A DNA stretch of 64,000 nucleotides, taken from the NCBI GenBank assembly GCA_023265025.1, contig JAHFUP010000002.1, positions 62,001 through 126,000 of the forward strand. The letters are read 5' to 3'. Within the stretch, counting starts at the first letter, position 1. The number at the start of each line of letters is the position of its first letter. Below, piece by piece: positions 14,595 through 62,631 of this stretch. The notes below the pieces were generated by a model. That model saw nothing but the letters and a program-made list of their open reading frames with translations, had not been told where the DNA came from and did no database searches. Origin of the DNA: Acidimicrobiia bacterium (GTDB taxonomy: Bacteria > Actinomycetota > Acidimicrobiia > Acidimicrobiales > AC-14). Position numbers and translations under genes: made by a program.

Positions 14595-15692
14595 TCAGGC
14601 CGCCGCAAGCGGACGGGGGCCACCGCAGGAGACCAATGTCTGTCCCCGCTCGTCGGTGAACACGACGCCGTCTGGATCGTCGGCGTTTCCACTGATACCC
14701 AGCCGCCCGAGATGGTGGAGCCGGTGATGCCGGTGGCACAGTGCCAAGAGGTTTGGCGTGTCCGACGCCCCGCCGTCCTCCCAGTGCCGGATGTGATGAA
14801 CATGGAGCCACCGGCTCCGATCGCACCCCGGCACCCGGCACCCTCGATCTCGATCTTCCACGACGAGCCGAGTCCGGTCCGGCACCGTCCGGAACGCCCG
14901 CCCCACGCTGATTGGCTTCCCGCCGGCCTCGAAGACCGGCCGCACCCTGGCGTCGCAGCCGATGAACCGGCGGATCCCGTCGCTGAGCCCGGGACCGAGG
15001 TGGAGGTGCCCGCCGGCCCCGGGCTGGGTGCCGACGTGCAGCAGCACGAGGTGACGGTCAGTGTGCCGGCGGGATGCACCGCCCAGTGAGCGGTCGGCCA
15101 TGGCCACCAAGGCGTCGGCCCAGTCGACGCGGGCGTTGGGCCCGCCGGCCCTGAACAACTCATCGCGTGTCGCGCTGAGCGCCCGCTCCACCAGCGCACC
15201 CTCTTCGGGCGGCAGCTCGGCCGTAAGTCGCCACGTGCCGTTCTCGGTGTGGCCGAAGCTGACCCCGCGGCTCTCCCTGGGCGCCTGCCGTTCTGTCTTC
15301 TCGGCCGGCGCCGGCTCCCGCAGCGGGTAGCTCCCGAGCACCCGACGGAGCTGCACGACGGTGGCCGAGCGCGCCAGCGCCGCCACCTCGGCGTCGATCG
15401 ACGCCGGCGCATGGCGGCACACGACCGCCACCTGATCCTCAGCCACCTCGCCTGCCTCAAGCGCCGCCCGGGTCTCGGGTAGCTCGCCGAGCCGGCGGGC
15501 CATCAGCACCAGGCTGCGCGCCCGGGCCGGGGACACCCCGCACGTCCACGCCACCCACTGCGCCGGGGAGTGAACGCCCGGCGTCTTCCACGACTCCGCT
15601 TCGAGCACACGGGCGATCAGGGACACGAGCCGACCCGTGGCCGCGTTGATTACGCCACACACCTCGGCGAGCTCGGTCTCCAACGCCTGCAT
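14595..15692 (-). CDS. DUF222 / HNH endonuclease (13E12-type), SOS-box controlled
   Basis: A 365-residue protein. The N-terminal DUF222 region (about 1-250) is helical. The C-terminal HNH zinc nuclease has C-R-V-P-G-C, H-V-H-H-I and N-L-L-A-L-C-H-R-H-H, with all catalytic and zinc-binding residues present. The family is abundant in actinobacteria as the mycobacterial 13E12 repeat proteins, some of which are LexA-regulated. The ATG at M-Q-A-L-E-T is selected because a perfect SOS-box palindrome begins 13 bases upstream; the longer frame would run through it. Likely a mobile or DNA-damage-linked nuclease. Confidence 0.9.
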   Translation of the reverse strand: MQALETELAEVCGVINAATGRLVSLIARVLEAESWKTPGVHSPAQWVAWTCGVSPARARSLVLMARRLGELPETRAALEAGEVAEDQVAVVCRHAPASIDAEVAALARSATVVQLRRVLGSYPLREPAPAEKTERQAPRESRGVSFGHTENGTWRLTAELPPEEGALVERALSATRDELFRAGGPNARVDWADALVAMADRSLGGASRRHTDRHLVLLHVGTQPGAGGHLHLGPGLSDGIRRFIGCDARVRPVFEAGGKPISVGRAFRTVPDRTRLVVEDRDRGCRVPGCDRSRWLHVHHIRHWEDGGASDTPNLLALCHRHHRLHHLGRLGISGNADDPDGVVFTDERGQTLVSCGGPRPLAAA

Positions 15693-15705
15693 GAAACCAG
15701 TGTAT

Positions 15706-15719
15706 CGAACATACGTTCG
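15706..15719. promoter_or_regulatory. LexA (SOS) box upstream of the DUF222/HNH gene
   Basis: The sequence CGAACATACGTTCG fits the Gram-positive LexA consensus CGAAC-RNRY-GTTCG exactly and is centred about 20 bases before the ATG. A second exact match lies in front of the other DUF222/HNH gene of this window. Confidence 0.85.
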
Positions 15720-16208
15720 TATAGCAACACCTAAAAATGCATGGCGGCCGAAAAAGTTCGCCACCTGTACCGAGGTACTACGGCGAGTTGGATCGACCGT
15801 AGCCCGGTGGTGAGGATTCCCCGGACATGGCAAAGCTGGAGCCGATGGTGGCGACAGCTACTACGTCCTCGGCGATCTACGGTTCCCTGATGATTCGAGC
15901 CGGACGGCGCGACGAAGCTCTGCCCAGTCGATTGGCTCCACGAACGGAGGATGCCACCCTTCAGCGACTCTTCGGTTTCTCGTCCCCTTCGTGGCGCGGA
16001 GCCGATAGGTCTCGGTGCCGGTCCTCGATGATGTGATCGTTACCAAAGGGTCAAGCGGTCAACGACGGCCGCCACCGCGGCGTCGACCGAGCCGACGACC
16101 AGGCGGTCCGAATGCCGATGAGGAGGCAGTCCCCGGGCTCCCTGCGGTGCAGAAGGGGCGGACGCGGGAGCCGCCGACTCGACCGGCGCCGGCCCCCGAA
16201 CGCGACGA
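15720..16208. other. Non-coding or uncertain stretch of about 490 bases
   Basis: No convincing gene. A 61-codon minus-strand frame at 15861-16046 with a TTG start reads as ordinary protein (T-E-T-Y-R-L-R-A; E-G-W-H-P-P-F-V-E-P-I-D-W) and may be a small gene or a fragment, but it has no ribosome binding site and no recognised family. The rest looks like spacer between convergent and co-directional accessory genes. Confidence 0.4.
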
Positions 16209-60905: not shown

Positions 60906-60972
60906 AGGGACGCCGCACCGGCGATCGCCGCCTGGCTGCCACATCGCCAGGCTGAGCGACGCCGGCCCGCGC

Positions 60973-62172
60973 TCATGCCGCGCTCGCCGGCGCGTCGCCA
61001 TGCCGAGGATGCCGCGGATCATCTGGTCGGACGAAGGCCCGTTTGCCCCGCCCCTCCACCAGGCGCCACCCGTCCAGGCTCTTGAGGTCGTGGTGATGGG
61101 GACACAACCTGTCCAGTAGATCGAGCGCGGTGAAGTGCGTCGCCGCCCAGTCCACCCGATGGTCGGTCTCCAGCCACGTTGAAGCGGTGCAGCCCTCGGC
61201 GGCACAGGTCGGGAACATCCACTCCAGTGCCGTCTGCTGTTTGGCGTTGGCCCGCCGGCCCATGTGGGCCACCCCCACCACCGCCTCCCCGTCGGTCACG
61301 ACCGCGGCCAGGAACGGATCGCCTGAGTCGAGCAGTTCCCGCACCGCGGAGACGGCCACCGGCCCGAAGCCGGCGATCTCACACACCTCGCCCTCGATCA
61401 CCCGGCCCCGCAGCAGCGCCGGCAGGTCGATGCGGACAATCGTCTTGGCCCCCGAGCGCGCGGGCCGCGACGCCGGCGCACACACCGCCTCAGCCAGAGC
61501 ATCGGCGGCGTAGGCCTCGGAGGGCTCGGAGCGCCCTTCGGACCGGGCCGTGCGGAACAGCCGGTCCCGCAGAGGCAGCAGTGCGGCCATGATCGCCGCC
61601 CCCACCTCGGGGTTGTCGCGCATGCGGAGGTTCCAGCCCCCTTCGGCGTCACCCCAGGTGCGCAGGAACCGCTCGGCGTGGATCTTGGCCCGCCGGGCCT
61701 CGGCATCGGGCAGCGCCGCCGCCTTGGTCCGGGCGCACTCCTCCCGCAGCTCGGCCAGCGACGACGTCGCCGCCTTGGCCAGTAGCCGATCGGCGGCCGA
61801 ACCATCGATCGCCGCCGCATCGGCCACCGCCGCCGCCTGCTGCGCCGACAAGGAACCAGCACGAGCCGCGGCGTCCACCGCCGGCAACTTCCCCAGCCGG
61901 CGGGCGGTGGTGATCGTCTCCGACGCCTGCCCCACCGACGTCCCCGTCGAGCGGGCCAGGTGGTGGGCCGCCGACCGCTCGCCGGCCCGCTTCCACGCAC
62001 CGCCGTCGGCCGCCCGGGCCGCGGCCAGCCCCTTGACCGTCGCCGCCATCCGCTCGATGGCCGCCGCCTCGATGACGGCCACACCGGCCTGCTCGCCACT
62101 CAACAAGGAGGCGTCGAACGCCGCGGCGTAGCGACCCATCGCATCCCGCAACTCCGCCAACCGCTCGCACAT
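60973..62172 (-). CDS. Second DUF222 / HNH endonuclease, SOS-box controlled
   Basis: A 399-residue protein. The helical DUF222 region spans about 1-290 and the HNH C-terminus has C-A-A-E-G-C, L-E-T-D-H-R-V-D-W and L-C-P-H-H-H. It differs substantially from the other DUF222 gene here, so this is not a recent duplication. The start is the ATG with TTGGAG 9 bases upstream; an ATG three codons earlier is possible, while the longer frame runs through the LexA box. Confidence 0.9.
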   Translation of the reverse strand: MCERLAELRDAMGRYAAAFDASLLSGEQAGVAVIEAAAIERMAATVKGLAAARAADGGAWKRAGERSAAHHLARSTGTSVGQASETITTARRLGKLPAVDAAARAGSLSAQQAAAVADAAAIDGSAADRLLAKAATSSLAELREECARTKAAALPDAEARRAKIHAERFLRTWGDAEGGWNLRMRDNPEVGAAIMAALLPLRDRLFRTARSEGRSEPSEAYAADALAEAVCAPASRPARSGAKTIVRIDLPALLRGRVIEGEVCEIAGFGPVAVSAVRELLDSGDPFLAAVVTDGEAVVGVAHMGRRANAKQQTALEWMFPTCAAEGCTASTWLETDHRVDWAATHFTALDLLDRLCPHHHDLKSLDGWRLVEGRGKRAFVRPDDPRHPRHGDAPASAA

Positions 62173-62229
62173 TGCGACCATCTCCAACGAATGGAGGGCC
62201 TGACCAGTGAGGGAGTTCGACGTCTCCCA

Positions 62230-62243
62230 CGAACGTATGTTCG
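62230..62243. promoter_or_regulatory. LexA (SOS) box upstream of the second DUF222/HNH gene
   Basis: CGAACGTATGTTCG is a second exact match to CGAAC-RNRY-GTTCG, about 58 bases before the chosen ATG. Confidence 0.85.
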
Positions 62244-62631
62244 TAGCGTACCGCATCACTGCCCCGGTCGCAAGGCAAATTGATCGGTCGTCGGCCGAAA
62301 TTGTTGCCCGATCTCGCCAAGGGCCACGACGTCGCCGGGCGGCGGCCACAGAGGCCCGCGCTGGATGTAGAAGTTCCGTGCGAAACCGGGGGTGTCTCCC
62401 TGCCCGGCGGTGTCTCGGTCGGTCGCACGAGACGTCCCGTGTCTCCTACTTGAACGGGGATCGCCTCGGTGATCAAATCGCCGTTGAGACGTGCCTGCTG
62501 TCTCTCCCTGCCATGCCGAGATGTGATGCTCCCTGCCGCGGACGGGCATCCTGTAGGAGCTGGGACGGGGCTTGATTCGCCGAGGCTGGTCTTGGCTGTT
62601 GAGCCCAACGTCTTTCCGACCCTCGTCACGG
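62244..62631. other. Non-coding stretch of about 390 bases
   Basis: No supported gene. Holds a small inverted repeat GTCTCG-N10-CGAGAC (62412-62433) and several GTCTC/GAGAC words. It should contain the promoter of the HNH gene (minus) and possibly of the small gene to the right. Confidence 0.4.

Follow-up and report, generated by a model that had tools for sequence, protein, structure and literature searches.

In the 64,000-nt stretch of Acidimicrobiales DNA analysed here (referred to as the window), the palindrome CGAACATACGTTCG matches the CGAAC-N4-GTTCG consensus with no mismatch and is very likely a LexA operator that represses the promoter of a DUF222/HNH nuclease gene until DNA damage occurs, a reading to which we assign a probability of about 0.92. 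The initial annotation had described a perfect LexA box about 13 bases before the start of such a gene, and all these points were reproduced: sequence and coordinates of the box are exact, the ATG of the minus-strand ORF (positions 15692-15690) lies 13 nt away, and the encoded protein matches PF02720 with 62.5 bits and PF01844 with 22.1 bits (cut-off 21.4). Coordinates of all features are listed in Table 1.

Table 1. Features of the window on which the analysis is based, and contigs of the same genome with exact boxes ahead of DUF222 genes
Feature	Position	Strand	Remark
LexA/SOS box CGAACATACGTTCG	15706..15719	.	Gene-oriented CGAACGTATGTTCG; exact match
Putative -35 TTGCTA	15722..15727	-	17-nt spacing to TACACT; box inside spacer
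Putative -10 TACACT	15699..15704	-	ATG 6 nt downstream; leaderless transcript predicted
DUF222 + HNH gene, 365 aa	14595..15692	-	PF02720 at residues 7-282, PF01844 at residues 294-327
HNH nuclease motif	14712..14813	-	PF01844
N-terminal ParB/Noc/KorB-like part	15318..15653	-	AF2 model and PDB structure comparison
Second exact LexA/SOS box	62230..62243	.	Identical sequence, opposite strand; ahead of second DUF222 gene
Putative -10 TACGCT	62245..62250	-	One base ahead of second box
Putative -35 TTGCGA	62268..62273	-	5' edge of repeated unit falls here
Leader hairpin GGGAG...CTCCC	62211..62228	-	Directly after second box; compensated changes in other copies
DUF222 gene, subfamily B	60973..62172	-	399 aa from ATGTGCGAG; PF02720 36.2 bits
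Dispersed unit of ~1.3 kb	60963..62273	-	Promoter, SOS box, leader and ORF; stretch common to copies
14 exact sites ahead of DUF222 genes	C9, C16, C35, C45, C77, C91, C121, C124, C134, C174 (two), C176 (two), C179		

The box fills the spacer of a putative promoter, recognised at the consensus level only, with the gene-oriented layout TTGCTA-ta-CGAACGTATGTTCG-a-TACACT-ggtttc-ATG. Since the putative -10 element would leave only six nt before the ATG, the mRNA is predicted to be leaderless. The same order of box, TACACT and start was observed at dnaE2 and imuA'. Among 65 DUF222 promoters, 28 have a TANNNT that begins 1-2 nt past the box, a position at which the -10 element is enriched across the family, and 15 have one immediately ahead of it, so that the promoter geometry varies while the box persists, either within the spacer or just past the -10 element; LexA bound at either position should block transcription. 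The inner tetramers of the boxes are mostly RYNT. We propose that LexA on the box would sit between the putative -35 and -10 elements and keep RNA polymerase away, and that upon DNA damage activated RecA would induce self-cleavage of LexA, allowing the nuclease to be made, probably from a leaderless mRNA. A divergent target across this box was also considered and rejected, as the nearest 290 nt contain no start of a coding-like ORF.

The genome to which the window belongs (5.45 Mb, 185 contigs) was searched for the exact palindrome CGAACNNNNGTTCG with a reversed-pattern control, and 37 sites were found versus 3 for the control. About 0.04 exact sites are expected per 64 kb; the window contains two, both ahead of DUF222 genes. 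With two mismatches allowed, a dinucleotide shuffle does not discriminate (57 matches, 47 expected), and it is the exact matches that are rare. Genes located behind exact sites include lexA, recA, dnaE2, dinB, imuA', a UvrD-like helicase, a DEDDh exonuclease with a GIY-YIG domain and a ruvC-like start. The lexA gene (L010) encodes LexA_DNA_bind and S24 domains, with TIGR00498 above cut-off, and has the box CGAACGTTCGTTCG plus two more partial boxes, while the recA (L012) box is CGAACGTCCGTTCG; dnaE2 combines PHP with Pol III alpha, and imuA' matches NF058630 above cut-off. Presence in the lexA and recA promoters of the organism itself and rarity at random positions, both named in the initial annotation as checks on the operator, are therefore what the genome displays.

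Several other features were observed at or near boxes of this genome. RecA contains an intein-like insert with a LAGLIDADG domain, and dnaB (L032), whose SOS box lies 86 nt upstream, has an intein-splicing domain. A caspase-domain (Peptidase_C14) gene (L012:1589-2398, plus strand) is divergent from recA and has the SOS-box intergenic region in common with it. An HTH and LAGLIDADG-like protein (L006:1528-2295, plus strand) follows an identical 14-mer in the layout box-acTAGACT. Further exact boxes (L009, L002, L007, L039 and L043) are located ahead of genes for an Eco57I-type methylase, an HTH protein, an aldo/keto reductase and an aminotransferase, and one of this group is 288 nt from a DNA methylase gene; some of these boxes may be chance matches, about three of which are expected genome-wide.

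DUF222 genes, repeated at no fewer than 16 loci, form the largest single class behind exact sites (14 of 37). Upstream DNA could be read for 16 of them, and all 16 are preceded by a box, exact in 14 and with one mismatch in two, on C71 (CGAACATGTGTACG) and ahead of a frameshifted copy on C19 (GGAACATACGTTCG); the genes on C160, C95 and C97, which start at contig ends, were left out of this count. Thus the same palindrome, or a one-mismatch form of it, does precede the other testable DUF222 genes of the genome, as the initial annotation had suggested looking for. The excess remained overwhelming after near-identical copies were collapsed to lineages. An exact box was also found upstream of every assessable DUF222 gene in G001 (3/3), G002 (2/2) and G003 (14/14), 19/19 in total.

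The association extends well beyond these genomes. Of 59 DUF222 upstream regions taken from another 13 genomes of the order, 37 have a box (15 exact and 22 with one mismatch), compared with no exact and five one-mismatch boxes in 273 background windows. A phylum-wide sample consisting of the single best DUF222 match per genome (n=29) gave 15 exact and five one-mismatch boxes (20/29), versus no exact and four one-mismatch boxes in 201 background windows. The background rate of boxes with at most one mismatch is about 2%; background windows were mostly gene-internal, and whole-genome counts in four genomes agree. Fisher p values are ~3e-28 (order) and ~3e-18 (phylum), which are overstated because the DUF222 sequences are related and not independent. 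On a tree of 83 DUF222 proteins, boxes are present in every deep clade. Within the lineage of the first gene in the window (A lineage; 43-57% identity), whose nearest named relatives are from Acidimicrobiales or Actinomycetes MAGs, the box is present with 0-1 mismatch at nine of 10 named loci; at the tenth, the match begins within the protein and the upstream region is unreadable. Genes without a box are concentrated in recent expansions, namely nine of 12 in G011 (L105-L109, L111, L113, L115 and L116) and five of six in G015 (L129-L133). Because the box is found at all testable genes of this genome and at most of those sampled across the phylum, DNA-damage control of the DUF222/HNH family appears to be old and widespread and not a mycobacterial oddity. 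The initial annotation had called such control old and general, and the operator data support this, although it is not universal, as G011 and G015 illustrate.

The Cys/HH/N/HH nuclease motif of the first protein is intact in alignment, and its HNH part weakly resembles the corresponding region of McrA and IscB. An AF2 model of the DUF222 N-terminus, built from seven sequences, is helical with pLDDT mostly 70-90 over residues 11-120; the model beyond residues 1-120 was not used, as pLDDT was <50 over most of the remainder. Among the 50 PDB chains listed as structural matches, the best 16 were all ParB, Noc, Spo0J or KorB (Z 5.5-9.1), above unrelated helical folds (Z 4-5). Pfam detected no ParB-type similarity in this N-terminus, and hhalign gave a probability of 5% over 53 columns. 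Since sequence profiles give no confirmation, we regard the ParB-like N-terminus as a structural lead and not as membership of that family. The protein probably binds DNA via its ParB-like N-terminal domain and cuts it via the C-terminal HNH. An RNA-guided IscB-like nuclease was rejected, as the match is limited to the HNH stretch and far below cut-off, and so was a known defence system, for which PADLOC gave only a 14-bit HNH match. In three other copies (L044, L047 and L079; G000:C174, C179 and C71), the HNH ends look frameshifted or disrupted, reflecting either assembly error or decay.

The second DUF222 gene in the window belongs to subfamily B and has a DH-type variant C-terminus with no Pfam HNH match, DUF222 being the only domain recognised. 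Subfamily B occupies at least 12 dispersed loci with unrelated flanks and 87-95% protein identity. The stretch shared by its copies runs from ~30 nt ahead of the box to ~10 nt past the stop and has sharp edges: identity between copies is 0.80 at -30..-20 and ~0.3 further upstream, and outside the unit it is random (about 0.28), despite low dS (0.02-0.36; dN/dS 0.11-0.20). The copy on C121 (L073) sits between rnj and ftsK, a site that is empty in G001, G002, G005 and G007 (L180 and L181 in the congeners), where the two genes are adjacent; at this one copy examined to the base, ~140 bp extra lie between unit and flank. Terminal repeats or target duplications of the unit were not obvious by eye. 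The flanks of the first gene are syntenic in G001 and G002, which have other genes in its place. Considering this replaced locus together with the empty rnj-ftsK site, it appears that the DUF222 gene comes and goes and that the unit takes its SOS box along.

Besides the box, many DUF222 leaders share a (C/G)(A/G)CTTCCCC-like motif located 10-100 nt past it, which was present in 23 of 69 leaders versus 1.1 expected (examples with ACTTCCCC are L081, L082, L091, L098, L044 and L047). Leaders of the CTTCCCC type all come from the order. In most of them a G-rich ribosome-binding site (SD) is predicted to be able to pair with the motif, such as CACTTCCCC with GGGGAGGTG; predicted pairing is >0.6 in 15 of 21 leaders, with a mean folding z of -1.4. 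Subfamily-B leaders have a different hairpin that follows the box directly, and in C9 and C174 its changes are compensated. No Rfam family matched the DUF222 leaders at gathering level, and the 60 nt that follow the box at lexA, recA, dnaE2 and other SOS genes do not contain the motif. We hypothesize that the leader hairpin may serve as a second, translational lock on DUF222 genes.

What the nuclease does for the cell admits several readings. The ordinary one is accessory processing of damaged DNA, and an SOS-driven role in mismatch repair has been proposed for the 13E12 genes of Mycobacterium tuberculosis (PMC4181829). In a more novel reading the gene is a self-spreading unit, whose SOS box would serve spread during damage-activated recombination and not host repair. 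The sharp-edged subfamily-B copies in unrelated surroundings, the empty rnj-ftsK site, the absence of DUF222 from the first locus in both congeners, a copy number of 2-17 across the genus and the naming of REP13E12 as a repeat in M. tuberculosis (PMC10589994) are all consistent with such selfish dispersal. On the other hand, neither terminal repeats nor a clear target duplication was seen by eye, dN/dS of 0.11-0.20 is equally compatible with host-useful genes, the evidence for dispersal comes from subfamily B and not subfamily A, and tblastn gave no match to phage- or plasmid-borne members of the A lineage; on balance we consider this reading possible, at somewhat worse than even odds. The broader proposal that DUF222/HNH genes are damage-triggered self-dispersing chromosomal units, which combine a ParB-like domain with HNH and their own promoter with a LexA switch, often with an SD-hiding hairpin as second lock, is a little more doubtful still.

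The two locks could also suit an effector of self-destruction or growth arrest, similar to SOS type I toxins. Both the frequency of the leader motif and its predicted SD pairing would fit this idea, as would the lethality of the HNH nuclease MSMEG_1275 upon overexpression in M. smegmatis (PMC9416677). However, MSMEG_1275 is likened here as an HNH nuclease only and not as a DUF222 protein, overexpression proved non-lethal for four of the five HNH proteins examined in the same study, the first gene in the window is predicted to be leaderless and has no hairpin, and up to 17 copies per genome would be odd for a killer, so we think an effector unlikely. As for the box itself, it has just 10 specified bases, and occlusion of certain SOS boxes by ArsR-type factors has been suggested for M. 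tuberculosis (PMC8151990). Chance is ruled out by the 37 versus 3 control sites, and with the box at lexA and recA and the phylum-wide association also taken into account, a fortuitous palindrome or a site for another regulator is extremely improbable compared with a LexA operator.

In M. tuberculosis, some of the 13E12 HNH genes are already known to depend on LexA and RecA (PMC4181829, PMC8151990), including RecA-dependent induction of five HNH genes (PMC8151990), and the initial annotation had mentioned LexA control for mycobacteria; the repeat nature of these genes is known as well (PMC10589994). The genes described here resemble 13E12/REP13E12 in belonging to the same DUF222-HNH family, in being repeated and in having the same box (M. 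tuberculosis motif MKWMTCGAAMRYWTGTTCGA; PMC4181829). They differ in their Acidimicrobiales host, in that nearly all copies are boxed, and in the sharp-edged units with an empty site and the order-specific SD-hiding leader. The regulon as a whole is similar to the LexA regulons of Streptomyces venezuelae and mycobacteria, sharing CGAAC-N4-GTTCG and lexA, recA, dnaE2, dinB, imuA' and ruvC (PMC9380542), although a text search of the S. venezuelae paper found no DUF222 or HNH target named (PMC9380542). SOS-controlled integron integrases (PMC3108266) likewise place the DNA-cutting enzyme of a putative mobile unit under LexA, but the enzyme here is HNH and not a tyrosine integrase, and neither a recombinase nor att sites are present. 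The predicted fold of DUF222 residues 11-125 is similar to the DNA-binding domain of ParB, Noc and KorB (Z up to 9.1), whereas DUF222 has no significant sequence match to them, lacks the CTPase part and is fused to HNH. Searches of the open-licence literature for LexA in Acidimicrobi and for DUF222 together with LexA returned nothing relevant. What appears to be new is the spread of the pattern across the phylum, the unit with its SOS box, and the leader motif.

DUF222 is an abundant actinobacterial family without known function, and these results provide it with a testable SOS function, be it repair, spread or death. The maintenance of operators in most clades, at ~25% protein identity, implies that these genes are supposed to stay off unless DNA is damaged. 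In M. tuberculosis, the 13E12 genes, which are multi-copy and SOS-controlled, would then be one case of a phylum-wide pattern.
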